64,000 nucleotides of DNA from Petrosia ficiformis (Eukaryota; Porifera; Demospongiae; Haplosclerida; Petrosiidae), in contig OX345649.1 of assembly GCA_947044365.1 (NCBI GenBank), forward strand, positions 3,302,633 through 3,366,632, given 5' to 3'. The translations under genes and the position numbers were made by a program. Under the pieces are notes generated by a model. That model was not told where the DNA came from. It did no database searches and saw only the letters and a program-made list of their open reading frames with translations. Position 1 is the stretch's first letter, and each line of letters starts with the position of its first letter. Shown here one piece after another: positions 17,733 to 64,000 of this stretch.

Positions 17733-18490
17733 TCACAGAAAACTAAGTTCCTTCTCTTGTTTCTCTTCATTTTCTTCAAACTGCTTATTCATGGGTTCTT
17801 CTTCCTCCTCCTCTTCATAATCAGATGCTTGCTCATCCTCCGACTGTTCTTGAAATCCATCTGTAGAAGGTTAGCAATTGCACAGTTGTATCAATTTTGA
17901 TTGTGAACTCGAAGACATGTATAGAAATCAAGTAAATGACATTACAAAGCTATATAACCTACCTTCCTCTTCTTTTGGATCAGGAGTCTAAATAAGGGAT
18001 AAACTGATAATTATATTCTCACCATTAATTATTTATGCAACTGTTGCTGTACACATACCTCCATTTCACTCTCTGTGATTGTTATCAATCCATAGTCATT
18101 TTCTTCAACTGCTGAATCAGTTGTTCTATTTGTATGAAATAGAATATACAATGTTCATGAACACTAGAATCTGTCTATTCTAATCTAGTGGTTAAGTTGA
18201 AGAGCTCAGAACCACTGTAGTGAGTGTGCTAACCAAATTGAAGCACTGGAAAGTTTTGTATTACATTTAAAATTGGGCTACCAAATAGATAATTACTTCT
18301 GAAATTTTATTAGCTCCTCAAATAATGTTATCCTTTGTGGATTAGCCATTTCACTCTTAATCCTTCAATTATATACATTGTACCTTATTAAACTTCTCAA
18401 TGGAATATCTGGAGGGTTCTCCACCAAAGGAAGTTGAGATTCTTGTCGAGGAATATATCTTGGTGTATCATATATAGCAAAGCTAATTCA
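17733..18490 (-). other. Receptor A cytoplasmic tail exons
   Basis: Four exons encode about 95 residues after the membrane helix: about 18,400-18,482 (FAIYDTPRYIPRQESQ), about 18,057-18,122 (ENDYGLITI), about 17,964-17,988 (TPDPKEEE) and 17,733-17,860. The last encodes QASDY followed by seven Glu and a lysine/glutamate-rich end at ELSFL. Tyrosines sit in IYDTP, RYIP, NDYGLI and SDYEEE. YGLI fits the YxxI spacing of phosphotyrosine or sorting motifs, but the residue at -2 is Asn, so it is not a strict ITIM. No enzyme domain is present. Confidence 0.75.
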
Positions 18491-21400
18491 ATAAAAAGTA
18501 ATTCCATATAATACTAGCATTCACATCATCATAATTTATTTTCCAATTTCTCACCTTTCTTTATTTTTGTTTCGTCTTTTAACTGCTACAAAACACGCTA
18601 TAGCTAACAACAATATTACAATTAAAATAACTACAGAACCAACTGGAGCAGCTATAGTGATAATGATAGTGTTATCGCTTTCATCTTCAAGTCTGCTAGT
18701 ACTGGTTGTTGCTGCATGTGAAGAATCAAAAATCAATGAACTTGAACATAGGTTTGAGGTTGTGTCTGCATGCTTACTTGTAGCGGCTTCAGGTATAGTA
18801 AGTAGAAAACTACTATTTGTACCATAGCCAGCTCCATTTCTTGCTCGAACCTGAAATGGAACAAGCAGATAATAGCAGTTGTCTGTTTTCTGTGAACCTT
18901 ACCTTGAAGTCATAAAAGTAACCTTGGACAAGATCCATAATGAGGATTGGCTGCCTGTCTGATAGAGAGATGAACTTCACGAATGGACCATCAGAAACAA
19001 TCTATGTAATGAAAAAGAATTTTATAAACAAATTAGAATAAAATTATAATTATGGGCTGGCATACAAGTGATCTTTCATGACCAGTATATGTAATTTGAT
19101 AACCATCAATCACTCCGTTTGGACTTTCAGGAGGTTCCCATGTCAATTGAACATTATTCTCACCAATTAACTCAGCTCTCAATGCAACGGGACTACTTGG
19201 TACTAAAAATAAACAATAATTATTATTTGCTTGACGACTTCTTTAATATACCTTCTTCCAGAGTGAAGAATGAATATGATGATGAATATGGTCCCCAACC
19301 TTCTGCTGTTTTTGCCGCAATTGTTACACTGATGTTTTCATAAGCATGCAGACCTACATAAACCAGTCAATGACATGAATCTATAATATAAACTAGTTAC
19401 CATATTTGGAGAATGACAACTGATCAGCAGGTAATAAGAACTCAGTAGTCTCCTGTATTTCCTCTCTTGTAAACCTCAATGAAAACATTGTGATGATACC
19501 ATTAGCATCAAGAGGGTCAGGTGGTAACCACATGATTGTAACAGATGTCACAGTCACTTCTGAAACAGTAATATTTTGTGGTGGTCCAGAAGGTGCTGAT
19601 GCATAGGAAAAGAAGTTTCTAATTACACCAACAATGGATTTTAATTATACATACCTGCTTCAGGCATGACTTGTACCAATGGTTCTGAACTCATTCCAGT
19701 TCCTCCTTGATTCATAATACTAACAGAAAATCTGTATTCAAAGTTTTCTTCCAACTCTTCAACCAGATATTGTTCAGTGAGTAATGGTTCAGTAGCAAGA
19801 CTAGGATCAGGATTATTTGCTTGTGGAGTGAATAGAATTGTTTCTGTATGAGAATCATCTGCCCTCTTTGTAATTCCATTACTTGGAGAGTGTCTTGTGG
19901 CTGTAATGGCATAAAAGTCAATCTTGCCCTTCCATTTTGCTTTCTCTGGTGGTCTCCAAGAAAGCTCCACAGATGTTGGAGATTGAACATTAACGGATAA
20001 ATCTTTCACAGAAACATCAGGAGCTATAGTAATAAAGATTAGATGAAATTATACATGCCAGATATAATACTTCACATAAGTCATAGAAAATGTTTTTTTA
20101 ATAAGCCTGAAAACTGTAAATGAAATCATACCAACTGATTTAGTAAAGTTAACAACACTTGAAGTTCCAATGACTTCATCCTCAACGTCTAAAGATTTCT
20201 TATATCCAGATTCTCCTGATCCAACTATAGGATATAGTATACTCTTCAGCTCTACAATGTAACCTCCATATGGTAGAAGACCACTGATGTTATAGTGTTG
20301 TATATTTGGAGGAATGTCAACTTTTCCTAGCTCTTCTCCATAACCAGGATAATAATCAAATCCATCAATTAGTCTGTATTTCAGTTGATATTCTGTAACA
20401 TAATAATCTGCTGTTTCAGGATGCTTCCATGAACATGATAGTATTTCTGAAGTGGCTGCATGACATCTCAATTTCTGAACAGCATGGATTGCTAGGTAAC
20501 AAGGTTTAATTATATATAATGTTGTGTGCTGATATGAATGTTTTAATATTACCTGTTTCAGTAGTCTCCACTATCAATTCTTCACTCTCTGGTCCAACAC
20601 CTTGTTCTGTTATTGCAAATACTGCAATCTTGTAAACTGATGCTACTAATAGAGATTCAATGATGTATGAAGTATCAAAGATATCACGGACAATGACAGG
20701 AGGACGTGGAGCATGTATTGAAGAGGAAGTGCTAATCATTTGATAAATAATGCCATATCCAAGGATAGTTGATTCTGGATCAAATGGAGGCTCCCATTGT
20801 AATAATATTTCTGTTGCACTGGTGCTAGCAACAACTGAAGAAGGAGGGCCTACAGGGGCTATATAAACAAGAAAGAAAATTAAGTTGCAATCAAATGTTT
20901 ATAACACTCAAGAAAATTAATAACATACATTCTCCATATGTGCTGATATGTGTTACAGCGTTTGGTCCACACCCTACTGATGTGAAACCACATACAGTAC
21001 AAGTATAGTGAGTGTCACTGTTCAATTCATGAACGGTTATGGCAAGACCAGTCACATTCAGAGATATTGTGTGTCCATTTTGGGCAGTACATGTCACTTG
21101 ATATCCTAACAGTATGCCATTGTAGTCGCTTACAGATGGAGATTCCCAAGACAAGTATACTGTTAGGTTTTTCTCTAGTACAGCAACAAAACCTTCTGGT
21201 GATGAACTAGGCACTATATCGCAATAAAGTAGATTTTTAAAATAAATATATACACAGATTGAGACTCACCTGACTCTGGCATTTGTATACTGACTAAGTT
21301 GCTATAGGGACCTATATCAATGGTATATGCGGCTATTTTAATTTCATAAGTGTGAAATGGAGATAATTGTGATAGCACTGTACTAGTATCATTCACTGAT

Positions 21401-24400
21401 ATTTCTAGCACATAATCACTTTCTACATCTGTTACTGTAATCCTGTAAATTCTGATTATTCCATTATGAAGGTGAATCTCTGGAGCACTCCATGATATGG
21501 ATAAAGTTCTTGAATCCAAAGGACTTGCAACTACATCCTGTGGAACTCCTGATGGAACTGTAATACAAGGTAATAACTGCTGATAAGTATAAAACACTAA
21601 ATCTCACCATCTTCAGGCATTTGGAACATGTCTGCAGCTATAGGACCATCTCCAATTGTCACTGCCACAACATTGAACTCATACACATAAAAAGGATGTA
21701 AGTCTTCTATCGTGATGTAGAGGTCGGTGGTATTATAGTTAAAAGTAGTATTTGAAAACAGTTCTTCCATTAGTACTGAGTAGTACTTAATTACACCATT
21801 TTGTTTGTCTTTTGGTGGTGGACTCCACTGTACAATTATTGAAGAAGAGCTAATGAAGGAAACTGACACATTTTGGGGCGGAGAACTTGGTACTATATAA
21901 AAAAAAGATGAAAGCAATCAAACTCAAACTACAAATAATTACTTACCATCTTGATTTGTTATTGCACTAATATGAGTATCTGGACCTGGACCTACTGTAT
22001 ATGCTGCAACTGAGAACTGATACTCGTAATAAGGATGTAGATCAGTTATTGAGATGTTTGTGGTTACAACGTCTACTTCTGTAGAGGTATCTGTACTAAT
22101 TTCATACACTGTGACTATATAGTACTGAATTATTCCATTTTGTTCATGAACTAATACAGGGTCCCACGACAAATATATGGCAGTTGAATTAAGTACAGTA
22201 GCCATTACATTTTGAGGGGACCCACTTGGAGCTGAAAAACAATAGATAATAGTTATAGTTAACCAGAATATATTTTTCTTTCACTCACAATCTTGTGGAG
22301 TAGTAACTGAGTATTCAGAGGTAAATGGTCCAGGAGCTATTGTGACTGCTGCTATCATTACAGAATAAGTATAGTATGGATGGACATCATTTAGTAGTAG
22401 AAAAGTGCTGTTTGTCGTATACTGGAAAGTTTCCATAGTTTCAGTAACAGAAACATTCACTAAATACGATTGAATAATTCCATTAATATCAGTGGATGGG
22501 GGATCACTCCACAAAATACTCAATGTGTGAGAGCTGAAAGCTGTTACTGATACAATAGTAGGTGAACTACTTGGAGCTAAAAAAAAACAATTGTTTTCAT
22601 GTCATCAAAATTAATGTGAATGTGTCATACCAGCTTGCAGTGTCTTGATAATTACTGGATCACTAAATGGACCAGCAGCCACAGTAATGGCAGCAACATA
22701 ACATTGGTATGAATAATATGGATGTAGAGATGACAAAGTGATATTTGCATATGTAGTATTGTATGTATTTGTAGTGTTGGTATCTACTTCATATATCAAG
22801 ACAGTATAACCAGTAATGATTCCATTAACATCATCTTCCAATGGTGGCAGCCAAGTTATTGTGAAACTTGTTGAAGAAATTGCCTGGGCAGATACTTCAC
22901 GAGGTGCGGAAGAAGGTGCTAGAATTGAAGAAGTACATAATTATTTGAGGTACTGATAATAAAATTTTATACAACATACATTTCTGCTTTGTTCTAAAAT
23001 CAATGAAGTTAGAAAAGGGACCAAATCCATGGATTGTTCTGGCTACAAGAGCAAATGAATATTCTGTATGAGGCATGAGAGAAGACAAAGATAATGAATT
23101 TGTGTTGGATGAATAAGTCCATCTGTTTTCAGAATCAACTTCTAGTAACGAGATGTTGTATCCAGTAATGACACCATTCTGACCAGAGAGAGGTGGTGGA
23201 GACCAAACTAAAATAGCACTGGTTGAAGTGATTGATGATGCAACAAGATTAGTTGGAGCCTCAGAGGGAACTTTACAAGGAAATAAATATACATATGTGG
23301 TTTATATTGTGTCTTATTATACATACTATCTTCAAGCATTTGGAATGTTATGTTTATTTCTGGTCCAGATCCTATTGTTACAGCTCTAACACTAAATGTG
23401 TAAATATAGAATGGATGAAGATCCTGTATTGTGAGGATGGTATCTGTTGAAGTAAGTGTATTCTCAACATCTGTTGTTGTTAATGTGATTAAATAATGTT
23501 GTATGTCTCCGTTCTGTTGATGAAAGTCAGGAGGATTCCATTGTAGTACCACTGAGCTTGAGCTTGTGATATTCACTGTTAGATCATTGGGTGGACCACT
23601 AGGAACTATATATAATTATATATAAATGATTTTGTTTATTAATACAAAATTTAACACACCATCTTCCAATGTTTGTGTAGTCACAGATGATGATGGTCCC
23701 AATCCTACTGTATAAGCTGCTACTGACAAAACATATTGATAATTAGGATGAAGGTTTGTTAGTGTTACGGTATTATATATGAAATTCTGATGTTGCTGAA
23801 TGGTAGTATTTGTATCAATTTCATATATTGTGATTGTATATGATTGAATGAGTCCATTCTGTTGATGAATCAATGGAGGAGACCAAGAGAGATAAATCTT
23901 GGTTGAGCTTATCACAACACTGGAGACATTTTGTGGAGGACCACTGGGAGCTAAAAAAAAGACATAAAATTAAATAATAATAATATTTATTACACATGAA
24001 CAAATTCTTAGAACTAACAATCTGCAGGAGTTTGAACTGTATATCCCATTGATAGTGGACCAGGTGATACTGTAACTGCAGCTACAAGTACAGTATATGT
24101 ATAATATGGATGTAGTTCAGTTATCAGTAAACTTGTTTCCGAAGTTTGATAATCGTACTGCTCTGACACTTCAGAGACATCTACTCTAATAGAATAATAG
24201 TCTATAATTCCATTGATATGTTCTTCTGGTGGAGGGCTCCAGGTAGCATTCAAAGTGGTTGAATCAACACTTACCACTGAAAGTGAAGATGGTGCTGCAC
24301 TAGGAGCTACAAGTTAGATATTAGAAAACTGAATAAATCAAATATACTTTATCTTACCAGCTTCATCTGTTTGAACATATATCACAGAACTGTATGGTCC

Positions 24401-27400
24401 AGTGTCTATAGTGACAGCTGCAACTGAACACTCATAAATGTAATAAGGATGAAGGGAACTAATAGTTATTGTAGTTTCTGTTGTGTTATAAGTTGTAACA
24501 ATATTAGTATTTGTTTCTGTCAGTTTTACAATGTAGCTTCGAATTATTCCATTGTGGTTGTTGGACAGTGGAGGTAACCAATGAAGACTCAACGTAGTTG
24601 AAGTGACATCACTGTCGAAAGATAATGCCTCAGGAGCAGAAGAAGGAGCTAAATAATTATGAGAATATTTTTTGTGTGTGTGATACTGAATCTATACTAA
24701 CCAGCTTCATCAGTTTCAAAGTACAAATAAGTTGTGAAAGGACCCATCCCTACTGAGGTGTATGCAGCTACAGCACATCGATAAATTGTAAAAGGCTTCA
24801 ACATCCCCACTGTTATCTGAGTAGAGGTAGTGAAGAAGGACATCTGCTCTCCAGTGACAGTGTTTATTAAAGAAACATTATATTCAGTAATGATCCCATT
24901 TTGTTCTGACAGAGGAGGTGGATTCCATTCTAATAACACTCCAGTTGAATTATGAACTGTAATACTAAAGTCAGTAGGAGAGCTTGATGGTACTATATAA
25001 AACAATAAAATATATTATTAAATAATAATTATTATATAATATAACTACATATATTATTGTAATAATAATATCACCCTTTGCATTGAGAGTTTTATTATGG
25101 AACAAGGATGAATGGAGTCCGGAGCCCATTAAGGTAGAAATTACATAAATGAATGCAATATAATCAAGATTGTTTGTTAGTTCCCCCCAAGTTCACACAT
25201 AAAAATACACGTGGAGCAAAGGGTGCATGCTATGTGTTTTATTATTTATACATCAGTGGAATTTCTATAATTTAAATTTAAAACTGAAATTTTTATAGTG
25301 ATTACTATTATACAGAAACACTTGAACTTACCATCTTCGTTAGTTTTGTATGATGTTACAATTGAGAATGGTCCTAGTTCAACAGTGAATGCTGCTATTG
25401 ATATCATATAGGTATAGTATGGATGTAAATCATTCAGAAATGCACTATTAGTATATGCAGTAACTTCAAAATTGAGTCCATGGTCAGCTACAGTGATATT
25501 AATTATGTAAGATCTAACAATTCCATTTTCATCCTCAGGTTGTAATGGATTCCAAGAAATATTCAATGTAGTTGAAGTAATGCCATTAGATATTACATTA
25601 GTTGGAGGTGAGATGGGAGCTATAGTAAACAAAAACAGTTAATATACAATTATAATGTATCTGGTCACTTGCTTACCGCTTTCAGGCATTCTAAGAGTAA
25701 CTGTGATGAATGGTCCATTACCTATAGTCACTGCTGATACGCTGCACTTGTAAGTATAAAATGGATGAAGATTTGGAATGGTTATATATGTTTCAATAAC
25801 ACTGAGTGTTGAGAAAACACCTGTTTCTAATTCAATAACTGTCAAATTATAATATTGTATAATTCCATTTGTTCCAGAAGGATCTGGTGGGTACCACTGT
25901 AACTGTAATGATGTAGGATCCAATGATGATGCATTAAGCTGCTCTGGTGGACTAGATGGAACTGAGCAAATAATGACATTATATGAATATTGTCAAACAT
26001 TAATTTACCATCTTGTAATGTAGTGATATTGTATGTCTGTGAGTATGGTCCTGTCTCCACAGTAACTGCTGCTACTTTCACATAATATAAAGTGTAAGGG
26101 CTCAGAAGTGAAACATTAAGACTATTCTGTTGAGACTGAAAGGAAAAGCTTTGTTTATTGTCAGCACTAAACACAAGAACTGAGTATTCACGAATGATGC
26201 CATTCTGATCAGCAAAAGGTGGAGGAGACCATGTGATGCTAACAGTAGTTGAGTTTGTTACTGAAACTAAAACTGATTGTGGTGGTGACAATGGAGCTAA
26301 AGCCAAATTGAAAGAAAAATAAATGATATAGTGCATTTAAATATAATAGTAATTATTCCTTACCGGCTTCTTCAGTAACAATACTAATAGTTGTTGTGTA
26401 AGGTCCTTCTTCAACAGTGACAGCAACAATATGGCAGTGATATATGTGATAAGGCTTCAAACCAGTCACAATGATTTGAGTCTGGTTGGTAGACTCCTGA
26501 AAGAAATATCCAGTTGCTGATTCAGTTACATTCACACGATACTCCCTAATGATTCCATTATGGTCTTGTGGATCAGGAGGATCCCAAGTTATATGAATGC
26601 TAGTGGAACTCAGAGCAATTCCACTAGCATGAAGAGGAGGAGTACCAGGAGCTGTATATAGTAATCAAATATTAATAACAACTGTAATCCTGATCAGACT
26701 AGATCAAGTAATGTAATGTAACATTATTCACATTCTTAAAATTGATGGAGTTATTTATTTTCACCTGTTTCATCTGTTTGAATAAAATACAAGTGACTGA
26801 ATGGTCCTACTCCCACTGTTGTCTCTGCTGCTACTACACAAACATATGTAGTATATGGATCTAGTCCTGTTATAGTGATATATGTTAGTGCAGTCATGTA
26901 CTGCATAGTGTCCAATGTTTCTGTATGAGTCACATTGATAACATATTGAATAATATCTCCGTTTTGTTGGCTAGGAGCTGGTGGATTCCATGAAAGATAT
27001 ATTGAATAAGGGGATGTTGAGTTTCCTGTGACTTCTTCAGGAAATCCACTTGGTACTGTATCAGAAATGAAAGTATACAATAGTTAAAAAGTATATATAA
27101 CTTTCAATTACCATCTTCAGGCATGGTGATACTGAATACTGTGCTGTATGGACCAGCAGCTACAGTGAAAGCAGTGACTGAGAAATGGTAACTGAAAGAA
27201 GGAATGAGAAATCCTATTATGGCTACTCTACCCGTAAACACTTCTGTACGATTCATTCCAGTTTCCACTGTGTAGACATTGACCCAATATTGTCTGATTA
27301 TACCATTGTGATAATCCGGAGAAGGTGGATCCCACTGGATGGCTACAGTACTTGCGTCAATGGAATATCCACTTGTAATGACTGGAGGAGAGCTAGGAGC

Positions 27401-29958
27401 TGAACACAAAAATATGAAAATACTCTTAGGAACAATAATTCATTTACCATCTTCAGGTGTTGTAATTAAATATTCTTGTGTAAAGGGGCCTAGTCCAATG
27501 CTGGTTTCAGCAGCTACTATACAGGAATATGTGGTGAATGGAGTCAAACCAGTAACTTCAATGAATACATCACTTGTTGTGTAATTAAAATTGACTCCTG
27601 TTTCAAGAATCATTACTCTTAGCTGATATGAGATAATTACGCCATTTTGGTGATTTTTGGGAGGGGGATTCCAGTAGAAACTGATGGAGTAAGAAGAGAC
27701 AATAGTGCCATTGAAATTCTCGGGAGATTCACTGGGTACTGTGAAAGTCAATTTAATCAGTGAACAAAAATGCATGTACAATATAAGAGGCTAACCTTCC
27801 TCTGCTGTAGTAATGTTAATAGGAGTTGAGAATGGACCTAGACCTACTGTATATGCAGCTATTTTATATTCATATGTATATGCAGGATGAAGTGATATCA
27901 CAGATAGACTAGTAGTATATGAAGTATATTGTAAGATATCACCAGTCTCAATTTCTATAATTATTATTGTGTAGTGTGTAATAACACCATTTTGGTCATT
28001 GAAACCAGGTGGACTCCAGGTGATTGAAAATCCAGTAGCTGTTATTGATGGTGTTAAAGAGGGAACTGGTGGAGCAGACGGAGCTACAGGAATATTGAAA
28101 AAGATGATAGCGAAGCAAAAAAATAAAAAAATATTTCATACCATCCTCAGGAGTATTCAGTACAAACTGTGTACCAAAAGGACCTGTTCCGACACCTGTC
28201 TGAGCAGCAATTATACAAATATATGTCCTGAATGGTCTGAGTGCAGTAACAATCAGATATGTAGTATTTGAATAAAGCAGAAATGTTTCATTTGTCTCCA
28301 GTACTGACACACTAATGATATAACCAGTTATGACTCCATTTTGTTGATCAAATGGTGGTGGCTCCCAGGTTAGAATAGCAGAATAGGGAGATGTTGTAGT
28401 AGCATTAAACATTTGAGGTGAATTACTAGGAGCTGTATGATAGGGTAATTATTTATTAACAAATTTAATTGTTGCACAGAACATTACAAATGTACACATA
28501 CCATCTTCAGGCATTTCAATGAAGATCACTTCTGATGGAGGTCCAATAAGAATAGTTACAGCACTGATAGTGATGTTGTAGCGATAACTAGCATGAAGAT
28601 AGTTAATACTGACTGAGAGATTCTGAGATATCTCAACAAATACAGATCCAGACTCAATCTCAACTATGATAATCACATACTCTCTTATGATGCCATTCTG
28701 TTCACTCTGTGGAGGAGGAACCCATGATAGGTCTATTATATTTGGTCCCGAAACTGCTGTGGAAATTGCTGACGGTGGAGACGTAGGAGCTGTGTATATT
28801 GAATAAATGAAAAAACAAACGAATGATTTGTTATTAACAGATTTTATAGATATTTCATACCATCTTCTGGCATTGTCAGTGTGAACCCACTGCTAAATGG
28901 ACCTTGCTCAATTGTTACTGCAGCTATCTTGAAAGTATAAGTATAGTAGGCATGTAGAAAATCAAGATAAATATATGTATAATTAGAAGTAATTTCAAAA
29001 GTTGCATTTGTGTCCATTTCAGTTATGAAAATGACATAGAATTGTATAATTCCATTCTGTCCTTCAATTGGTGGTGGATACCAGGTCAGATTTAAGGAAG
29101 TGGAAGAATCATTAAACAGAACATATGAAGGGTTTTGAGGTGTTGATGTAGGGGCTAAGTAAATTTAAAATTGATTACAAATTCAACTTATACAATCACT
29201 ACGTTTACCTGCTTGAAGAGTATTAACTATGATTGGTACATTGAATGGGTAAGTTTCATTTCCAACTACTCTAACTCTGCAGCTGTATGTATAGTGTGGA
29301 TGAAGAGAAATTATGTTAGCATATGTCTCCACAGCATGGAAAGTCCAGTCACGATTTGTTTCAATTTCATCAATTTCTACAATGTAGTGATATATGACAA
29401 TTCCAGACACCATTAGAACATCCCACGAAAGATATATTGCTGTTGAACTTAATGCAACCCCTGTGAAGTTCACTGCAACTGCTACAAAGGTGATAATATT
29501 AACAATGAATAACTGAAACATACCTCGGTTGTTTGTTTACTGTTAACAAAATTCATAAAGTTAATGAATATGTTATTAAAATACTTACTTCCTGTGACTA
29601 CAAGTGTGAATGAACTGGAATGAGTGACTGTTCCATTTGGCAAAGTGTTTGATCCAGAACATTTGTATATTCCTTCATTGCTTATTGTCAAGGAAGTGAT
29701 GTATAGAACCGTATTGACAATTGTGCTGTTAACAATTGATTGAGTCAATTGAATGTCACCAGTTGAGGAAAGGATGATACCATCTTTGTACCATGTTATA
29801 GTGGGCTGTGGCTTCCCAACTGCATTGCAATTAACAGTTAATGTAGCTCCATAATATTCAGAAATTGAGGACTGAAACTGGGTTACAGTCACAGGTTCTG
29901 GAGTGCATATATATATATATATCATAATTGATCTATATATAATTATATATATATAATA

Positions 29959-30001
<43 letters not shown>

Positions 30002-30373
30002 ATATTATATATAATTATATGTATTAGTTAAAGCACCGGTTTCGCTCGTGTTGTCTTGGAAAATATAGCACTGGGGGTGGGGTCTCGAAGCCTCATAAAG
30101 CTTCTCGACCCCACCCCTCGTGCTATATTTTCCATACAACACTCGCACCGGTGCTTTAACTGGTTTATAGTACAGTATTAGTACTTTGGATTGATACAAT
30201 AGAGAAGAAGAATGAAGTACTTAGCGTTCTTGCACTAAACCCGAGGTAAGCGCGTTGTTTTCTAGTGTTATAAACAACATCCGGAAAATATAGAACAGGA
30301 TGTGGTCAAAAAAGTGTGCTATATGGAAAATATAGAACAGTCGGTACCTTTGATGTTAGGCGTGAAAGTGCTT

Positions 30374-30414
<41 letters not shown>

Positions 30415-32622: not shown

Positions 32623-32745
32623 TGAGACAAACTATACTAGAGATAAAAAATGTGACTATATATACATAAATATGAATCACGGGAAAAAAAAACGATCTGT
32701 TAAAAACGTGACAATAAATGATCTTATAAAATTCACATATATAGA

Positions 32746-33894: not shown

Positions 33895-34365
33895 TACATG
33901 ACCAGTATAAGTAATTTGATAACCACAAACCTCCATTTGGACGTTTAGGAGGTTCTAAGTCAACTGAACAGTATTATACCAGGTCTCAATGCAATAGGAC
34001 TATATGGTACTATATAAAAATAAACAAGGAACTATTAATCACTTCATAGCTTCTTTAATATACCTTCTTCCAGAGGGAAGAATGAATATAACGATGAATA
34101 CGTTCCCCAACCTTCTGTTGTTTTGGTGTAATTGTTATACTAATGCTTTCATAAACATGCAGACCTACATAAACCAGTCAATGACATGAATCAACAATTT
34201 ACCATATTTGGAGAATGACAACTGATCAGCAGGTAATAAGAACTCAGTAGTCTCCAGTATATCTCCTCTCTTGTATATAAACTTCAATGAAAACATTGTC
34301 CCATTAGGGTCAGGTGGTAACAACATGACTGTCGCAGTCACTTCTGTCCAGAAAGTGCTGATGTA
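33895..34365 (-). pseudogene. relic of receptor FN3 28-29 exons (first fragment)
   Basis: Blocks 33,897-34,020, 34,062-34,162 and 34,200-34,360 match the split exons of FN3 domains 29 and 28 in receptors A and B. They carry deletions and base changes that break the frame. The flanking exons of the gene are missing, so this is a dead fragment. Confidence 0.75.
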
Positions 34366-34440
34366 TAGAGAAAAAGGAGTTTCTAATTATCAGCAATCTA
34401 CAATGAATTTAATTATACATATCTGTTGCAGGCATGACTT

Positions 34441-35300
34441 GTTATCTTTCATGACCAGTATATGTAATTTGATAACCATCAATCGCTCCGTTTGGACTCT
34501 CAGGAGGTTCCCATGTCAATTGAGCAGTATTGTCACTAAGTAGCTCAGCTCTCAATGCAACAGGACTACTCGGTACTAAAAATATACAACAATTATTAAT
34601 TGTTTGACAACTTCTTTAATATACCTTCTTTTAGAGTGAAGAATGAATGGTCCCCAACCTTCTGCTATTTTTGCCGCAATTGTTATTCTGATATTTTCAC
34701 AAGCATGCAGACCTACATAAACCAGTCAATGACATGAATCTATAATATAAACTACTTTTTTTGGAGAACAACAACTGATCAGCTCTTGCAAACCTCAATG
34801 AAAACATTGTGATGATACCATTAGCATCAAGTGGGTCGGGTGGTAACCACATGATTGTAATAGATGTCACAGTCACTTCTGAAACAGTAATATTTTGTGG
34901 TGGTCCAGAAGGTGCTGATGCGTAGGAAAAGAAGTTTCTAATTACACCAACAATGGATTTTAATTATACATACCGGCATGCCTTGTATCAATGGTTTTGA
35001 ACTCATTCCAGTTCCTCCTTGGTCCATAATACTAACAGAAAAACTGTATTAAAAGTTTTCTTCCAACTCTTCAACCAGATATTGTTCAGTGAGTAATGGT
35101 TCAGTAGCAAGACTAGGATCAGGATTATTTGCTTGTGGAGTGAAATCAGTGAATAGAATCGTTTCACTATGAGAATCATTTGCCCTTTTGTATTTCAATT
35201 ACTTGGTGAATATCTTGTAGTTGTAATGGCATAAAAGTCAATCTTGTTCTTGCAGTTGTTGGATTGAATATGAACAGATAACTCTTTCACCCAAACATCA
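34441..35300 (-). pseudogene. relic of receptor FN3 27-29 exons (second fragment)
   Basis: Blocks 34,441-34,577, 34,623-34,715, 34,755-34,920 and 34,972-35,300 repeat domain 29 and 28 exon halves and then most of domain 27. Small deletions break the exons, for example in the end of domain 27. The order matches the intact gene. It directly follows the first fragment, so the same exons were captured twice. A related relic is at 61,735-62,460. Confidence 0.78.
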
Positions 35301-48900: not shown

Positions 48901-51900
48901 TGTAAGAGCTAAACTATTAAGTGCTACATGGGAAATTACATTATTGCGGACCAAGGTTTGGTGCGTAAATAGCTATACACTTTTATCTATAGGAGTACTT
49001 GAGTCATGTTGAGGATTCATCGTGAACATACCTGTTGAGCTATCCCCAGTTTCAGCACTCAATTCTATATCACTTGCTGAATCTTTACTTTCAATTACTA
49101 TGTACACTGTATCAGCAGAGTAAGGATTTGTGAGATGATCTGGATCAATATAAGCATCTTCCCATCCATTAGTTTTCAACATAACATCATGAAGTGCCTC
49201 ATTCGGGGTTTTGACAACCGTTGAGGCATACACGACAGCAGTTCCGCTTGTAACTTCAAGTTGTACAGTGATTCCATTATTGTCAAAAGGGTAGTTAACA
49301 TACTTCGTTTCACCTTTATTAATTGTGTCAGAAATTGCCTCATCAATAGATAGAGTTCTTGAGGCTGAAAAATTAAATTAAAAAATTATGTATACATTGT
49401 ACAATATGATTCTATATTGTCAGGTACCTGTACATGCTTCTTGGCTGATAGTCACTTGAAGATTACTTAGTAGATTTGAATTGAAGCTAGATATAAATGC
49501 AACATAGGATGATTCATATGCTATAGCATTTAATTCATTTGTATTTGCTCCTGAAATCCCAATTGCAAACCCTATAATTCCTGTATTGTGTAAAGCATTG
49601 GCTGCAGCTACAGTATTAGAATAACTATTTGAATAACCATCTGTAATCACAATAGCAATTCGAGGTATTCCAGTACTAACTGGCCGTGCTCCATTTGATT
49701 CTGTAAATCCAATTGTGCGAACAGCATTCAATGCCGATGCTGTGTTAGTACCTCCACCGCTGTAAGGAAGTGAATTGACTGCAGAAAGCACTTCCGACTT
49801 GGTGGTGTAAGTGTTTAGATAGAAGTGAAATGTGTAGGAACTTCCATAAGACATTACTCCTACTCGGACATTGTCAGGACCAATCTCAAAACTGTCTACA
49901 AAATCAAAAACAAATTGTTTCATCAGTTGGAAATTAGAGTAACCAACACTACCAGAAGCATCCATCACAAAGAATAGATCCAGACCACTCACATCACAAT
50001 CTATTACGTGACAAAAAGGAGCATCATAACTTTTATTGCACTAGCAAACATGTTACTTGCAAAATACAATCTTAATTACATTCCTTCATCAAGAAGTAAG
50101 GGCAACTCCAGACAGGGGTTAGCTTCAGACACTTTTTACTATAACCAATAATAATTCAAAGCAATTAATAACAGCCTGGTGATATGGTATTTGGTATGTG
50201 CATTCATCATTGCAGTCAACATTCCTTTTTACTATATAATATTAAAATTGTCCATACATGTATGTTCCTATGTAAATATAAAGTGATTTTTTAAATTACC
50301 TACAATTAAGAGCCTGTAAGTATGCAATTGAGGTAACTGTGCATGGTCTGTTAAATAACCAATTCATTTTTACAGTGAAGATATCACTGCAAGTACTAGT
50401 ATGATTGCTTTGTGACTCTTAATTAATTTTTACAGGTTTTTGAATATAATATTATATATATATATCTTTTGCAATGTTTTTCAGACTGAGTTTCAGTCTG
50501 AAAATGTATTTTTTTAAAGTTTCTATTGCAAACCAGAGGAGGTTGTACACGTATCACTGCAATGCATTTGCATTATTGTGAAATTTAATCAATATTATAT
50601 ATATAGGGTATATTACATGAGGTTGAACAGTTCAACCTGCCGATTCAGCACATATATAAATATACCCCACTCTAGTGTACTAGCCCCTTCTCCTATGTTT
50701 CAAGCTGATGCATGGGTGGAGAAGAAGAGTCAGCTTTACTATATAGTCCATTTAGAATGTGTGAAAACTGCAAGGTTTAGTTGTTTACAGTCCATCGCCC
50801 ATGGTAAGTAATAAAAAATTATTGTATGTTTTTACATAGAATAATTACAATGATTTCTATTTGTATTTAATTTGATGCTGTTTGAAATTGTGTGCTGGGG
50901 TATATACTATACATTACAGAATATATACTCACAACAAGGAAGGTGCAAGGCAGTATACACTAGTGCTTGAAAGTGGTTAGCCCACCTCCTTCTGATAACC
51001 TATAGTCTTTTGCTATACAAAAATCAACTCAAATACTGGCATTTGACAGTCCTCCTTTATTTATAACTACATTCTTACATTTACCATAATGTAAACATTC
51101 CAAATGAAGAGACCCTCCTCACGCTAAATAGATTCATACATTCAGGAGATCACAAAATCCAAAAATGCTATTTACAAAACACTAGTAGCTGCAATGAAGT
51201 CGACATAGGAGTATCGACACAAAAGAAGGGTGTGGCTGTTTATTACTGCTCCTGAATGAAGCCAAAGATTATCTTTGATGGAGAAATACTGTCGTTTCCA
51301 GTAATTTTGCAACGGCGCTCTCAAACCGGAGATGACGTAATTATACTTACAATAGTAAACATTACAGCAAACACCACATGATCAGAGTAAATTGATTGGC
51401 TAAATGTTATACCACACCCATTCCCGCTTTGACATTTTTTGTTGCAAGATTGATGCAAATGACAGTATAAGTGGTTTTATTGCTGATCATGTGACCTGTG
51501 GCCAATCAGAGTGCAGATATTGCGTCACGTGATTGACCATTAAACACACTTTTGCGTGCAATAAATAGTTATTGCACACTTTGCTCACCTCTGCTGCTTC
51601 AACAACAGTGGTAGTTCACCAGATCGTCAATAAATCACTTAGAACACACTTGACAGTGCATCGTGTGTTTCAATGTAGCACTTGGGCGGTCAATAAAGGT
51701 CTCGTTTACATAACGCACTCGCCTTCGGTCGTGCATTATGTAAACTCAACCTTTATTGACCCGCCCTCGTGCTACACGTAATCACGGTAAAGTGTGTTCT
51801 AACTATTACATAGACTGCAGAGGTCAAAAAAATAATCATTTGTCCTTACTGTATAAGCTACAGCAAATTATAATATATCCGACAAGTGCAGGTTTTCTTG

Positions 51901-53668
51901 AGCATTTAGAAGTGTCTGCATGCAAAACCTATTATATACTACTTGTCACTTACCTGTGATATCATTGTAACTGTAATAACGAGCGGCTCGCCTACATGGC
52001 AAAGTAATACAAAGCACCACAAATTTTTTCAAAATATAATAAAGTTTGTGTATGAAACAAACAATACTTCTGTTACATGGAATAATTTGAAAAACATTTA
52101 TGAGCACTAAAACTGTTATAACTTTATATCCATAAAAGACAAAATAAGAATATCAATGGAAGAAATGTATAATTTGTATATGTATCTTACATCTTATTCT
52201 CTGTTTTCCTTCAAAAACAATGAAGAAGTTCTCAAGTCTACCTCTAAAGTCTCCAACGTGTGAAAACGTATTGAATCACCTCCATCACGTGTTTAGTACA
52301 TGACGCTTTCAAGGTGCACATACCTGTATATAGGTGGAGCTAGGTAGATCTCTATCGATCTTGCATCAATGGTGATGTAGTAGCAACCATACCTCGATTG
52401 TTTTTGGTTTGAAGTGTTTCTTGGCTAGCAACAGCCATGAAACAGGATCATTTGTGTTTTGTGTGTCCATATTTACTCTCGTTATTGCCCTCGTTTCATC
52501 TTAAAGTCATGAAACGGTAACTGTTGTCATAACTTTAGAACCAAAAGGTTTTAGAAGAATTCCTATGTTAGTTTTTTCCTTGTATAATTTGAAGTCTACC
52601 AGTACCCCGTTTGAAATGTCAATGTTTTATTTTTCCAGAAAATTTGCTAACACACAGACACACAGACAAAATGATTACCGTACCCTTCCGCCTACGCTAC
52701 GCGGTGGGGGTAATGAAGAGTCGTGCTACAGTGATGGATTTTTTTGCATTATAATTATATAAAATTCACGCCGGGCTCTTCTTGTATACATGTACAGTAA
52801 ACAGTGCTGGCTATACCAAGTAAAAAGTGTCTGGAGTTGTATTACACATATATATATATATATATATAATTATATAAAATTATATATATATATATATAGT
52901 ATGATGGTGACATCATCCCTTTGATTTGGTGAGTCCTATATATTGTATATAGACCTTCCATTTGCACACTATGCAGGAGATGTCACCATCATACAATATA
53001 TTGTATATAGTATGCTAATAGGTCCTATATACTGAATATAGGACCCTCGTTTTGTGCCCTTGGATGTGATATAGCCTTCGTAGGCTCGGGCTATATCACA
53101 TCCAAACTCAGGTCCTATATTTTGTATATAGGACGTATTAGCATACTATATAATATACATATATATCCCGATACGACGAAATATACTTATAATATATACA
53201 TATATATATATATATAATTATATTTATAGCACTAACATCAAAGGTTCTATATTTTCCATACAACACTCGCATCGGTGCTTTAACTAATACATATATATAT
53301 ATATATATTATTTCGGGTACATACTAGTATTAGCTAATAGCTATTAATGTATCCTTTGCTGTATTGCATAAATTATTATATAAAAAATAAAATTAAAAAA
53401 CATCAAAGTAAACCACAGGTTTATGTATCAGATATAGTCAGATATAGCACCCTGTGGTCAGATATAAAACCTGCCGTCGAAACAGACTACAAGCAAACAA
53501 CGCTTACCTTCTCCAAAGTGCCGACAAAAAGGTAGAAGTCAACAAAGGTTTTTCGTTCGTGATTATAACACGCCTACTCGTGCTATATAATTATAATCAC
53601 CTCTCCCTCGTGCTCGGTGATTATAAATCCGATATAGCACTCGTAGAGTGTTATAACATGTTATAACT

Positions 53669-53708
<40 letters not shown>

Positions 53709-53736
53709 GAATTGATCATGAAATTATTAATGTCCA

Positions 53737-53804
<68 letters not shown>

Positions 53805-54342
53805 CTTTACCTTCATTAAGTGCATTTATGGCAGTCACAAAGTATGACTGTGTTCCACCTGAACTGGTGTAGTAATTAGCCCAATAGCTGCCTTGCCCGC
53901 TGACATCAGTTGAAAGAGGGATGGGGTTTGACATTACCTCCAAATAAAGCCTTGCAGCAATAGCTGAATAGAGTGGTTTTCGTAGATCAGACCATACAGT
54001 GGAAGCCCAGTTGATACTGAAACTAGTCGAAATCCCCTGCAGTAGTTGTGAAGAAACAGCTTTTGTTGACGAATACTTTGCCAAACTGAGTTGCCATATT
54101 CCGCCATCATTGTTAGTACCAGTGTAAGTATCGACGTCGGTTCCGTCACCAGTTTCCACGTATGCGATTCGACGAAGAAGGTATTCATCACTTGAGAATA
54201 GTGCAGAGAAAGAAATCTTCGCTATACAGGCCTGCACGACAGCTGTTCCGTTTACTTCAGGCACAAGAGTGAGGTCTACTGTTAAAACTGGACAACAAAT
54301 GGCTAGTATAATTATCATCCAAAGTATACTGAATGCTGCCAT
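35939..54342 (-). CDS. Receptor gene B: tandem paralogue of receptor A
   Basis: The layout is the same as receptor A, exon for exon: signal peptide plus lysozyme-like domain (53,811-54,342), vWA (49,428-50,000), unassigned domain (49,032-49,364), Ig (48,360-48,665), about 29 FN3 domains (about 37,195-48,267), membrane helix (36,977-37,139) and an acidic tail ending at the TAA at 35,939. The start is the ATG at 54,342; no other in-frame ATG precedes it nearby. FN3 exons are nearly identical to those of A, whereas the first exon and the tail differ much more. The first intron is 3.8 kb against 0.27 kb in A because of repeat insertions. An AATAAA overlaps the stop codon region (35,935-35,940 on the minus strand). 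No disabling mutation was seen in the exons I read. Confidence 0.82.
36977..37139 (-). other. Receptor B transmembrane exon
   Basis: It encodes stalk ARRLEEENYNTT, a hydrophobic helix (IAISVPIISVIILVVILFLA and a few more residues) and the basic stop RRRNKPENEER. It aligns with receptor A's helix with many substitutions. Confidence 0.85.
37195..48267 (-). other. Receptor B FN3 array, domains 1-29
   Basis: Exons pair one to one with those of receptor A. From the outside in (approximate): 47,993-48,267; 47,642-47,935; 47,283-47,573; 46,910-47,201; 46,570-46,857; 46,220-46,510; 45,873-46,161; 45,520-45,811; 45,155-45,441; 44,816-45,104; 44,469-44,756; 44,125-44,413; 43,093-43,383; 42,743-43,033; 42,404-42,691; 42,065-42,356; 41,732-42,011; 41,386-41,676; 41,040-41,327; 40,700-40,986; 40,362-40,648; 40,019-40,303; 39,681-39,967; 39,323-39,608; 38,948-39,252; 38,550-38,885; 38,074-38,443; then the split domains 28 and 29 down to 37,195. 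Domain 26 keeps the SCSW motif but is about ten residues shorter than in A after GESV. The intron between domains 12 and 13 (43,384-44,124) carries a perfect palindrome. Confidence 0.82.
43855..43922. repeat. perfect 32 bp inverted repeat with 4 bp loop
   Basis: Left arm 43,855-43,886 (TTATTTTCTGGATCATCCC onward) and right arm 43,891-43,922 are exact reverse complements around ATTA. It sits in the receptor B intron between FN3 domains 12 and 13 and is absent from the matching receptor A intron (24,994-25,331). It could be a minimal palindromic element or a fold-back insertion. Confidence 0.9.
48360..48665 (-). other. Receptor B Ig domain exon
   Basis: Cys in TLICNAVGKPQPTITWYKDD and in KGMYKCSGSN flank the Ig core, as in receptor A. 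The exon is 306 bp, one codon shorter than in A. Confidence 0.88.
49032..49364 (-). other. Receptor B unassigned domain exon
   Basis: It is 333 bp like its counterpart in A, with NGWEDAYIDPDHLTNP conserved. Many substitutions separate it from A, more than in the FN3 exons. Confidence 0.6.
49428..50000 (-). other. Receptor B vWA domain exon
   Basis: The MIDAS motif is intact (DASGSVG, GGGTNTASALN, IVITDGYSNS). Length equals receptor A's exon. Differences cluster near the C-terminal part (YESSYVAFISSFNSN). Confidence 0.9.
50103..52839. mobile_element. possible non-autonomous DNA transposon (short imperfect TIRs)
   Basis: The left end CAACTCCAGACA, interrupted by 17 bp, continues CTTTTTACTATAACC. 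The right end in reverse complement reads CAACTCCAGACACTTTTTAC then TTGGTATAGCC. No clear target-site duplication and no transposase are visible. It contains a fragment (50,290-50,460) related to the inverted-repeat arms at 58,480 and 60,240. Confidence 0.35.
51641..51800. repeat. imperfect palindrome, arms about 75 bp
   Basis: The left arm opens AGAACACACTTGACAGTG and the right arm closes AAAGTGTGTTCT, with TAAAGG...TTTACATAACGCAC pairing to GTGCATTATGTAAA...CCTTTATTGAC around GCCTTCGG. It has the same overall style as the hairpin elements at 30,026 and 53,5xx, but a different sequence. Confidence 0.75.
52899..53151. repeat. two adjacent nested palindromes
   Basis: The first has arms GTATGATGGTGACATC (52,899-52,914) and GATGTCACCATCATAC (52,979-52,994). 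The second has arms at 53,005-53,043 (ATATAGTATGCTAATAGG onward) and 53,113-53,151. Inside it a hairpin pairs GGATGTGATATAGCC with GGCTATATCACATCC. The flanks are TA microsatellites. Confidence 0.8.
53162..53670 (-). mobile_element. hairpin element copy 1, apparently split by an insertion
   Basis: The end TATCCCGATACGACGAAATA (53,165-53,184) and the body from CATCAAAGTAAACCACAGG (53,401) to about 53,670 both match, in inverted orientation, the continuous copy at 59,300-59,594. The 215 bp between them, including a fragment of the 30,026 family, is missing there, so a later element has landed inside this one. Confidence 0.65.
53739..53802. repeat. (TA)n microsatellite at receptor B first intron donor
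   Basis: About 32 TA units begin 7 bp into the first intron of receptor B. Translation through it gives a YI repeat that is not part of the protein. Further TA runs are at 52,848-52,898 and 53,677-53,703. Confidence 0.9.
53811..54342 (-). other. Receptor B first exon: signal peptide and lysozyme-like domain
   Basis: The leader MAAFSILWMIIILAICCPVL is followed by LLRRIAYVETGDGTD, NNDGGIWQLSLAKY and LRKPLYSAIAARLYLEV. The candidate catalytic Glu (YVET) and the GIWQL motif are kept. The splice donor after AATGAAG is at 53,810, leaving a phase-1 end as in receptor A. Confidence 0.68.
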
Positions 54343-56400: not shown

Positions 56401-56429
56401 GTTGTGGTTGAAGTGTTTGCATCAATCTA

Positions 56430-59585: not shown

Positions 59586-59594
<9 letters not shown>
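59300..59594 (+). mobile_element. hairpin element copy 2 (continuous)
   Basis: A palindromic part (59,310-59,400) with arms TATATCACAGCATGAGTGC and GCACGAATGGCTGTGATATA is followed by a unique segment ending GTTTCGCCGTATCGGGATAT. It is the inverted counterpart of the split copy at 53,162-53,670. Confidence 0.7.

Positions 59595-59653
<59 letters not shown>
59590..59653. repeat. (TA)n microsatellite
   Basis: About 30 TA units directly abut the end of the hairpin element. The same element's split copy also borders TA-rich DNA, suggesting insertion into TA repeats. Confidence 0.9.
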
Positions 59654-59657
<4 letters not shown>

Positions 59658-59925
59658 TATGTATAAAATTATAAGATACATTATAATAATTAATTTTAAT
59701 AAGGAATAATTATAAAATTGCTAAACTTTGGGTACTGTCTCTGTCTTCTAGACAACTTACTCCCACTGAAATATTAATGCTGTTAATGAAACAGAATAGT
59801 CATCACATTTGACACTGAAATACATAAATATTGATTCATTGGATAGCATTCAAATTGAATCTCGTCTGACTGTCTGAACACCTTATACTTATTATTATAA
59901 CTATTGTATCATATTTATTTCATTT

Positions 59926-59927
<2 letters not shown>

Positions 59928-59957
<30 letters not shown>

Positions 59958-59961
59958 TTCA
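59928..59961 (+). repeat. (TTTA)n microsatellite
   Basis: About eight ATTT units lie in the spacer of the large inverted repeat. Confidence 0.8.
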
Positions 59962-60867
59962 TTTATCTTTACGTTTATTATATTAAAATATGTGCCATGT
60001 TATTCAACTATGAAATGGTGTACTTCAACAAATTATTGTACTGAAATTGACTAATTTTTTGCCATGGCATGGATGGTGTTATTATCTGGCTTTATAATTT
60101 TTGGTAACATATTGTAAGCTTATAGTATATATCTTCTACATATATTAGCTATATGTAAATAATAATTATGTGTAATGCATTGTGATAATTATAAAACTAT
60201 TTTGTGTATAATAATTATAATTATGATTATTAAAATGATCTACAATTAAGAGCCTGTATATAAGTATGCAATTAGAGTGTATAACTACTGGTTTGTTATG
60301 ATAACCAATTCATACTTACATGGTAGGTATAACCTGTGGTATATTATTATCATTCCAATTCAAAAAAACAATAGATGTTACTTGCTCATTTCGAGGTAAA
60401 TATTATGTACATGAATTTTTACTAGCACAGATATCACATACATTGTACCTAATTATAATTACTGTATACTAGTAAGGGATTTTCATTCTTTATTACGGCA
60501 TATACCAGTCAATATAAATCAATATCAAAAAAATAAATTATTACTTGTAAACATTACACCTAGCAAGAAAAGAAATCAGTAATTGATTGATATAGTCTCA
60601 GGAGCATATTATTAATAATATTATAGTATTGAAACACATTTAACCAAATGAGGGTTAAATAACCATTAATTTTTACAGTGCATTCACTGTAAAAATTAAT
60701 GGGTTACTTTAACCTTCATTTGGTTACATGAGTTTCAATACTATATTAATAAATTTATTCCTTTTGATATTGATTTATATTGGCTAGTAGTGTATTCCAT
60801 AGTAAAGAATGGAAAATCCCATATAACAGAAATTTAGGTACAATGATGTGGTATTATAATCAGACAT

Positions 60868-61700
60868 CCTATTATGGCTACTGTACTCGTGAACACTTCT
60901 GTACGGTTCGCTCCAGTTTCCACTGTGTAGACATTAACCAAATATTGTCTAATTATACCATTGTGGATCCCACTGGATGGCTACAGTACTTGCGTCAATG
61001 GAATATCCACTTGTAATGACTGGAGGAGAGCTAGGAGCTGAACACAAAAATATGAAAATACTTTTAGGAACAATAATTCACTTACCATCTTCAGGTGTTG
61101 TAATTAAATATTCTTGTGTAAAGGGGCCTAGCGGGTTTCAGCAGCTACTATACAGGAATATGTAGTGAATGCAGTCAAACCTGTAACTTCAAAGAATACA
61201 TCACTCGTTGTGTAATTAAAATTGACTCCTGTTTCAAGAATCATTACTCTTAGCTGATATGAGATAATGACACCATTTTGGTGATCTTGGAGAGGAGGAT
61301 TCCAGTAGAAACTGATGGAGTAAGAAGAGACAATAGTGCCATTGAAAGTCTTAGGAGATTCTGTGAAAGTCAATTCAATCAGTGAACAAAAATGCATATA
61401 CAATACAAGAGGCTAACCTTCCTCTGCTGTAGTAATATTTACAGGAGTTGAGAATGGACCTAGACCTGCTGTATATGCAGCTATTTTATATTCATATGTA
61501 TATGCAGGATGAAGTGATATCACAATCAGATATGTAGTATTTGAATAAAGCAGAAACATTTCATTTGTCTCCAGTACCGATACACTAATGATATAACCAG
61601 TTATGACTCCATTTTGTTGATTAAATGATGGTGGCTCCCAGGTTAGGATAGCAGAATAGGGAGATGTTGTAGTAGCATTAAACATTGAGGTGAATTACTA
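60868..61700 (-). pseudogene. relic of receptor FN3 exons 4-7, with a chimeric domain
   Basis: From right to left: a fused exon (61,419-61,690) joining the first half of FN3 domain 4 to the second half of domain 5; a domain 6 exon (61,086-61,360) with an internal deletion after GGGGCCTAG and loss of its acceptor region; and the N-terminal part of domain 7 (60,868-61,040) with a deletion. The relic stops abruptly at 60,868 against repeat DNA. It is a collapsed, non-functional fragment of a third receptor copy. Confidence 0.78.
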
Positions 61701-61734
61701 CTAGGAGCTGTATAATAGGGTAATTATTTATTAA

Positions 61735-62460
61735 TGAATGAATATGATGATGAATATGGTCCCCAACCTTGTGTTATTTTTGCCACAATTGTTATACTAA
61801 TGTTTTATAAACCAGTCAACAACATGAATCTATAATATAAACTAGTTACCATATTTGGAGAATGACAACTGATCAGCAGGTAATAAGAACTCAGTAGTCT
61901 CCTGTATTTCCTCTCTTGTAAACCTCAATGAAAACATTGTGATGATACCATTAGCATTAAGAGGGTCGGGTGGTAACCACATGATTGTAATAGATGTCAC
62001 AGTTACTTCTGAAACAGTAATATTTTGTGGTGGTCCAGAAGGTGCTGATGCATAGGAAAAGAAGTTTCTATTTACACCAACAATGGATTTTAATTATACA
62101 TACCTGCTTCAGGCATGCCTTGTATCAATGGTTTTAAACTCATTCCAGTTCCTCCTTGGTTCATAATACTAACAGAAAAACTGTATTCAAAGTTTTCTTC
62201 CAACTCTTTAACCAGATATTGTTCAGTGAGTAATGGTTCAGTAGCAAGACTAGGATCAGGATTATTTGTTTGTGGAGTGAATAGAATTGTTTCACTATGA
62301 GAATCATCTGCCCTTTTTGTAATTCAATTACTTGGAGAATATCTTGTAGTTGTAATGGCATAAGTGTCAATTGTGCCCTTGCATAATTCTGCTTTCTCTG
62401 TTGGTCTCCAGGACAGCTCCACAGATGTTGGTTGAATATGAACAGATAACTCTTTCACAC
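61735..62460 (-). pseudogene. relic of receptor FN3 27-28 exons
   Basis: Blocks match FN3 domain 28 (61,735-61,810 and 61,855-62,050) and domain 27 (62,105-62,445). They carry frame-breaking changes, such as a lost base in the domain 27 stretch near 62,325. It is the counterpart of the relic at 34,755-35,300 and occupies the same place upstream of a terminal receptor exon. Confidence 0.75.
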
Positions 62461-62641
62461 AAACATCATATAATTACAGAAGAATAGAAGGTAGTATGTA
62501 TGTTACTTGACAGTTAACCATTAATATAATACATAGCTCAGTGTATAGGTATTAAATATTTGTGTATACAAATGAAAACATACTAACTGCAATTGTTCAT
62601 TACCCTAGGTACAACAAATTCTTTTATTTTCCTTTGTTTAT

Positions 62642-63548: not shown

Positions 63549-63655
63549 TTAATCTTCACTTTCTTCCAGCTGCTCATCATTGAGTTCTTCTTCAACTTCT
63601 TCTATCACCTCTTCTTTGAGTGTATACTCACAATCTGATTCTTCTACAAATTTAT
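63549..63655 (-). CDS. Receptor gene C: terminal exon of a third paralogue, rest outside window
   Basis: The exon encodes KFVEESDCEYTLKEEV to EESED and a TAA stop. It is nearly identical to receptor B's last exon, with the same 107 bp length and acceptor context. In receptor B the next exon lies about 580 bp upstream, which would be just beyond the right edge, so a further gene of the array may continue there. It could also be an isolated duplicated exon. Confidence 0.65.
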
Positions 63656-64000
63656 CTGTGGAAGATTAGCTAACTATTATTACACAAAATAATGTTTTTT
63701 CCCCTTTAAATTGATAGTGAACTATAATAAAGATTGAATACAGCTAAGAATCAAGTATAAATTATAAAGGATACAAAGAATGTAGAAGCAATTTGTACAG
63801 TGGCATGAAGTGCATACATTGGTTATAAACCTTATTCCACCCATAATATATTTTGTCAGGCAAGCCATGAACTTCACTAAAAGGAGGATGCATTGACATA
63901 TATCACTCAATCTTTAGATCTGCTACACAAATATTGCAGACCAGTCACATTACAGTAATTCCAAACCTTACCATAACTCACATGCCATATCCAAATCATG
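63656..64000. other. intron upstream of receptor C terminal exon
   Basis: It matches the intron at 36,046-36,390 of receptor B almost throughout, with small changes. No exon is expected here by comparison with B. Confidence 0.65.

Follow-up and report, generated by a model that had tools for sequence, protein, structure and literature searches.

What does a lysozyme-like domain do at the tip of a giant sponge receptor? The question is raised by a 64,000-nucleotide stretch of the genome of the demosponge Petrosia ficiformis (hereafter the window; C14:3302633-3366632 in a genome of 191 Mb in 29 contigs), in which the original prediction had recognized a tandem array of membrane receptors with a lysozyme-like head, a vWA domain, an Ig domain and a stalk of 29 FN3 domains. 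Our answer is tentative. The head appears to be homologous to phage proteins of the family phrog_3108, a relationship that is new, and cell-surface capture or sensing of bacteria by a filter feeder would be the most likely role of the receptors, with a probability of roughly 0.4.

Two complete receptor genes

Genes A and B, both on the minus strand, were modeled with a small gene finder trained on obvious exons and by reading of splice sites; all splice sites are predictions, and all three receptor genes, including a third, gene C, are gene models. Gene A (32607..17733) encodes 3,591 amino acids and gene B (54342..35939) 3,565. Both have the same layout of 41 exons, with no internal stops, GT-AG ends at all introns and phase 1 in 35 of 40 introns. 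In the spliced coding sequence, the alternative frames hold 248 and 284 stops for gene A and 258 and 291 for gene B, compared to none in the coding frame. The parts of the two genes are:

32067..32607, minus strand: gene A exon 1, signal peptide and lysozyme-like head (LL)
31224..31796, minus strand: gene A exon 2, vWA domain with a DxSxS...T...D metal site (PF00092, E 2.4e-47)
30835..31167, minus strand: gene A exon 3, eight-stranded beta-sandwich without a Pfam family
29589..29897, minus strand: gene A exon 4, Ig domain (I-set; Ig_3, E 2.1e-13)
18778..29481, minus strand: gene A exons 5-36, stalk of 29 FN3 domains (Pfam)
18555..18711, minus strand: gene A exon 37, membrane helix (hydrophobic helix read off the translation)
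17733..18482, minus strand: gene A exons 38-41, acidic cytoplasmic tail with four tyrosines and no NPxY
53811..54342, minus strand: gene B exon 1, signal peptide and LL head (79% identity to gene A)
49428..50000, minus strand: gene B exon 2, vWA domain
49032..49364, minus strand: gene B exon 3, beta-sandwich
48360..48665, minus strand: gene B exon 4, Ig domain
37195..48265, minus strand: gene B exons 5-36, stalk of 29 FN3 domains (by homology to gene A exons)
36977..37139, minus strand: gene B exon 37, membrane helix
35939..36917, minus strand: gene B exons 38-41, cytoplasmic tail with NPGY

The predicted union of all these parts in one protein is supported by domain searches for vWA, Ig and FN3, by a lysozyme-like fold predicted for the head on middling scores, and by the helix in the translation. 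In gene A, each of the 22 single exons e8-e29 exceeds the Pfam cut-off for FN3, and the flanks contribute three stretches in e5-e7 and four in e30-e36, giving 29 in total; the flanking stretches come from a scan at E values up to 0.1, and the whole pieces pass the cut-off. The metal site of vWA domains is defined by DxSxS, a threonine and an aspartate, and it is complete in gene A (DASGS at 14, plus T and TDG). Solved relatives of this domain include collagen VI alpha-3 and PTMP1. The beta domain between vWA and Ig has about 110 residues and is a PPC/SID1-like beta-sandwich. No kinase or other signaling domain was found downstream of the gene A membrane helix, where the frame ends at 17733. 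The tyrosine-containing tail of the original prediction holds for gene A but is not a conserved feature, as the tail of the Amphimedon relative has no tyrosine. NPGY, an uptake/adaptor-type motif, is present in the tails of genes B and C and lacking from those of gene A and the Amphimedon protein.

The head domain and phage family phrog_3108

The head has no family in Pfam or NCBIfam and no sequence match in the PDB, g-type (GH23) lysozymes included. The SLT/GH23 family (PF01464) matched one of 32 head sequences at an E value of 0.065, below the curated cut-off, and its search of the genome gave no match at E<=1. The g-type lysozymes of early animals are enzymes without the head/vWA/Ig/FN3 architecture, and the available part of the source describing them contains neither "Willebrand" nor "fibronectin" (PMC12855814).

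Phages gave a different result. Family phrog_3108 of PHROGs, listed there with function unknown, matches the head of gene A (E 7.1e-10; residues 54-173 on positions 28-152 of the 160-position profile) and that of gene B (E 1.8e-7), as well as an open reading frame (ORF) from a metagenome-assembled genome (MAG; E 1.7e-15). A profile built from 32 heads matched 81 of the 2,837 ORFs in 86 loci, the strongest at 3.6e-43, and gave no match among 2,837 shuffled ORFs; because the loci were picked by similarity, the 81 ORFs speak for consistency, not prevalence. The phage relatives taken in were 80 of 170, not a random sample, so that counts are lower bounds. The reverse profile, made from 16 phage and MAG ORFs, matches the three head exons and none else of 170 exons. 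In a profile search of genome contigs, one of 25 candidate stretches, on the bacterial MAG contig L029, held a stand-alone head-domain ORF of 232 amino acids. This MAG is labeled Zetaproteobacteria, and a neighbor with a RING-like cysteine pattern suggests that the bin label may be wrong.

The phage family and the head have the same glutamate and a G-I/L-x-Q motif. The glutamate, E64 of the head, is present in 55 of the 57 relatives aligned, in 12 of 12 sequences of a further comparison and in all 17 unique phage/MAG segments covering the site, which 50 of 67 segments do not cover. E64 is a putative catalytic glutamate, judged by its position where a helix ends and by the offset of the aligned ranges rather than by superposed atoms. 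Unlike the head, phrog_3108 members mostly form ORFs by themselves, a minority being the C-terminal part of large virion-type proteins, and no vWA domain was seen with them.

Where do the large phage proteins lie? In a T7-like phage, internal virion proteins B, C and D form a module, and the available part of one source gives D a lytic-transglycosylase motif with a presumed role in opening the wall (PMC5384007). In two podovirus-like loci from IMG/VR (L030 and L031), the head-type domain is the C end of a protein of 1,005 or 462 amino acids. It is followed in both by an internal virion protein, with a T7-type tail fiber next in L031, and preceded in L030 by a nozzle protein, an internal virion protein and an unmatched ORF of 190 amino acids. 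In L042 and, more weakly, in L039, the neighbor's match to "internal virion protein with endolysin domain" begins only at profile position 290 or 315. The enzyme sits at the start of that protein, giving the impression that the head-type domain takes the place of the absent enzyme part. As a separate observation, four IMG/VR loci (L038, L039, L042 and L044) encode a phrog_3108-type domain inside a protein of 796-942 amino acids near a lysine-rich ORF of 360-464 amino acids, followed in L038, L039 and L042 by a very large ORF with virion-type matches.

The sponge genome itself has 15 head matches, which make up 14 copies (one in two pieces) at five places. Of the head loci tested, the seven on C14 and C16 retain E64, and the five on C5 and C1 have methionine instead; loss of the glutamate is therefore possible, yet the receptor heads kept it. 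The five methionine-bearing copies (C5:7768540-7774752 and C1:20502178-20504922; L026-L028), one of which has a stop, are possibly non-catalytic paralogues. Three further head copies occur in another setting at C14:4737823-4806751 (L022-L025), with no vWA match nearby; IgGFc_binding (PF17517) follows the first (by Pfam), and Ig domains follow the second (by Pfam) and the third (by translation). Three head-beta loci at C16:2314418-2461866 (L016, L018 and L020), two of them with an intervening vWA domain, have no A/B-type FN3 stalk in the stretches read. Among the head-locus stretches read, the FN3 stalk of the A/B/C type was seen only in the C14 array. A very large set of FN3 exons, many in runs spaced about 350 bases apart, lies on C12 at ~0.17-2.4 Mb and accounts for about 108 of 150 scored FN3 matches (1,376 candidates).

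Animal relatives and possible functions

How widespread is the receptor among animals? We found 231 head-vWA relatives and listed 120, of which 55 form alignment A2 and 30 alignment A3. Among the matches listed, the closest named relatives are those of the demosponge Amphimedon queenslandica, whose match covers 95% of the query; coverage is 94% for Amphiura and Asterias and 87-100% for Owenia, Haliotis, Lingula, Octopus and Hypsibius. Outside sponges, the head and vWA domains occur together in echinoderms, molluscs, a brachiopod, an annelid and a tardigrade, with further starfish in a second search; this search and that for full-length relatives scored only candidates sharing most words. The bilaterian proteins of these seven genera, among them "integrin alpha-1-like" of Asterias, have the same domain order at 32-42% identity, and several align to the beta domain at 14-28%. 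Those read differ from the sponge receptors in having neither FN3 stalk nor Ig domain; some end in a hydrophobic stretch, and some molluscan and annelid members carry CBM14 chitin-binding domains. Their database names say nothing on function.

Full-length relatives with an FN3 stalk are P0121 (2,905 amino acids), P0122 of Amphimedon (2,830) and P0123 (2,231). They align to gene A at 38-46% identity over 61-78% of its length and have head, vWA, beta, Ig (except P0123) and FN3 stalk. P0121 and P0123 are unbroken frames on contigs of 10.1 and 10.8 kb and thus transcript-like, which indicates that head and stalk are joined in related species. Together with the full model of P0122, they lend support to the joining of the head and vWA exons to the FN3 exons, which is thereby backed by transcript-like frames and a gene model of relatives and not yet by transcripts of P. 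ficiformis. P0122, named "phosphatidylinositol phosphatase PTPRQ-like," has the whole layout including membrane helix and tail; it differs in its shorter stalk (19 FN3 stretches by Pfam), in its tail without tyrosine and in being named after an absent phosphatase. R3 receptor tyrosine phosphatases, PTPRQ included, resemble gene A in their long FN3 ectodomain and single membrane helix, but as described in the available parts of two sources they need a cytoplasmic protein tyrosine phosphatase (PTP) domain and an FN3-only ectodomain (PMC5242461, PMC5336234), and gene A has no PTP domain and adds vWA and Ig. PTPRQ or another phosphatase was rejected, since no PTP family was found in the last 603 amino acids of gene A nor in P0122, and integrin alpha likewise, since a piece-by-piece scan of gene A found no propeller family. 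The receptor family is well supported and conserved. That no named receptor has this combination stood insofar as the PMC literature searched gave no description of a head/vWA/Ig/FN3 receptor, although database models do bear the names PTPRQ-like, collagen alpha-1(XII)-like and integrin alpha-1-like. In the sponge Aplysina aerophoba, vWA genes change after microbial elicitors, according to the available part of the source (PMC6208332); a link to the head-vWA-FN3 family is not shown.

A peptidoglycan-directed head is the best reading of the predicted fold, the conserved glutamate and the phage context. Because its sequence family is common to phage proteins, some of which stand at the place of the wall-cutting enzyme of T7-like phages, the head may bind and possibly cut wall glycan. 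Genes A, B and C each encode a giant single-pass surface receptor. Under this reading, its head would bind, and perhaps still cut, the beta-1,4-linked glycan of bacterial walls, with a protein or matrix ligand being gripped by the vWA and beta domains. An FN3 domain measures about 3.5 nm, and the head would sit some 100 nm (A and B) to near 300 nm (C) off the membrane at the end of the stalk. By a further step, the tail may couple capture to uptake or signaling. Microbe binding, already proposed for the array, gains from the head homology to phage proteins, some of them in a virion module, and is still plausible only.

Several observations weigh on the other side. The wall-penetration context was seen for a minority of the phage copies: 72 of the 81 matching ORFs are shorter than 300 amino acids and 7 reach at least 700, and among eight neighbors scanned, three were unmatched, one was called endolysin (L043) and two gave weak structural matches. 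In Klebsiella phages the ORF adjoins a DNA adenine methylase and hypothetical genes, and in phage B8b it lies amid hypotheticals. There is also a serious rival, possible though somewhat doubtful, in which the protein is a matrix or skeleton adhesion receptor: the vWA domain and beta-sandwich would bind collagen-like matrix, the head would be a lectin-like remnant on matrix glycan, and the FN3 stalk an elastic tether. A spacer or remnant would have no need of a glutamate kept in 55 of 57 relatives, however, and the placing of some phage homologues among internal virion proteins also speaks against it and for the bacterial reading.

Gene C and the history of the array

The remaining features of the array are:

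63549..63655, minus strand: last exon (e41) of gene C, whose other 90 exons are upstream of the window at C14:3407809-3366873
34065..35299, minus strand: relics of 3' FN3 exons e31-e34, broken, between genes A and B
60858..62467, minus strand: relics of e31, e32 and e33, then pieces of e8, e10 and e11, between genes B and C

The head-to-tail order of two complete paralogues and the last exon of a third (63655-63549), with broken copies between them (35299-34065 and 62467-60858), is thus as originally described, and the third gene is complete beyond the window. Mapped by its exons across C14:3292633-3426632, gene C starts at C14:3407809 and has 91 exons encoding 8,383 amino acids, with no stops, GT-AG ends at all introns and the frame kept throughout. 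It has one head, one vWA and one beta domain, then three blocks of an Ig domain plus 19, 24 and 34 FN3 domains (3 Ig and 77 FN3 in all), a membrane helix and a tail, and is more than twice as long as genes A and B.

Is gene C one gene? We infer that its three blocks belong together. Three adjacent genes, two of them without a head exon or membrane exon of their own, would fit the gaps of 1.9 and 3.4 kb ahead of the second and third Ig exons and the fact that these are gene models with no transcript seen. This is nevertheless quite improbable, as all 91 exons are intact, in phase, stop-free and bounded by GT-AG, a single head exon and a single membrane exon were found, and gene B also has an intron of 3.8 kb. 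Synonymous divergence (dS) between the blocks is 0.067-0.070, compared to 0.150-0.156 between blocks and gene A and 0.082-0.086 between blocks and gene B. The blocks are mutually closer than to A or B, suggesting that the stalk probably lengthened within gene C after the split.

The divergence of the paralogues is strikingly uneven. dS ranges from 0.04 to 0.77 across exon groups; between A and B it is 0.73 in the head, 0.44 in the Ig domain, 0.07-0.18 in the FN3 groups of e5-e29 and 0.48-0.62 in the membrane exon and tail. The heads of B and C are close (0.04), and A and C are closest in the vWA (0.05) and beta (0.04) domains. Exon identities, with the last copy in gene C taken from e24 on, vary far more than expected by chance (chi-square 492, 357 and 204, 40 degrees of freedom). 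Since synonymous differences this large would hardly result from uneven constraint, gene conversion or unequal exchange among the paralogues is the probable cause. The copies would have arisen by tandem duplication and the gene C stalk by in-frame duplication of [Ig-FN3] blocks via phase-1 introns; gene conversion would even out the middles of the paralogues, with head and tail persisting as two old types.

The ratio of non-synonymous to synonymous change (omega) is 0.16 (A-B) and 0.15 (A-C) in the head, the lowest group of both pairs, and 0.31 for B-C on few changes. Over the three pairs, it is 0.15-0.62 for the head, vWA, Ig and large FN3 groups, as domain averages under which single diversifying sites are possible. 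Values of at least 1 occur on small counts: the beta domain A-C (1.06), e30 A-C (1.24), e30 B-C (1.64; 2 synonymous and 11 non-synonymous changes) and one tail exon A-C (1.22). For B-C, this exon shows 0 synonymous and 6 non-synonymous changes. For gene C, the tail figures come from one exon (28 codons) and repeated exons are represented by their first copy. A pseudogene array is rejected for A, B and C because the frames are intact and the large groups have omega values well below 1, and haplotype duplication is unlikely with copies on one contig and dS up to 0.77.

A self/non-self (allorecognition) receptor family, which the original prediction had allowed for and which tandem copies with relics, Ig and FN3 domains and length variants would suit, is very improbable and not supported, given, in the one assembly covered, three copies in the array, an omega of 0.15-0.16 between the two head types and 0.15-0.62 in the groups above, the few changes in groups at or above 1, paralogues homogenized rather than diversified, and a head-vWA pair that is ancient in animals.

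Around the array, AT-rich direct and inverted repeats, 79-90% alike, occupy 56427-60869 of the window between genes B and C and are possibly mobile-element remains. Downstream of gene A on the minus strand (1103-10163), ORFs resemble the RAB3GAP2 C-terminal family (E 9.2e-8), and the N-terminal family falls just below its cut-off (E 8e-6).

A bolder history, unlikely as it stands, is that early animals obtained a phage-virion-type peptidoglycan-cutting module from phages or bacteria and attached it, together with an integrin-like grip domain, to a giant membrane tether, as a surface "harpoon" that opens or samples walls at 100-300 nm, and that sponges extend its reach by Ig-FN3 block duplication and keep the copies uniform by gene conversion. 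If gene C is one gene, it encodes a very long single-pass membrane protein of 8,383 amino acids. The family is an unnamed and misleadingly annotated animal surface module that ranges from sponges to starfish and molluscs and is tied to a phage family of function unknown, and peptidoglycan binding or cleavage is a testable role for both the animal module and phrog_3108. If this is true, sponges bear wall-directed domains as receptor heads, which would be relevant to the ways in which the earliest animals dealt with bacteria, whether as food, symbionts or threats.
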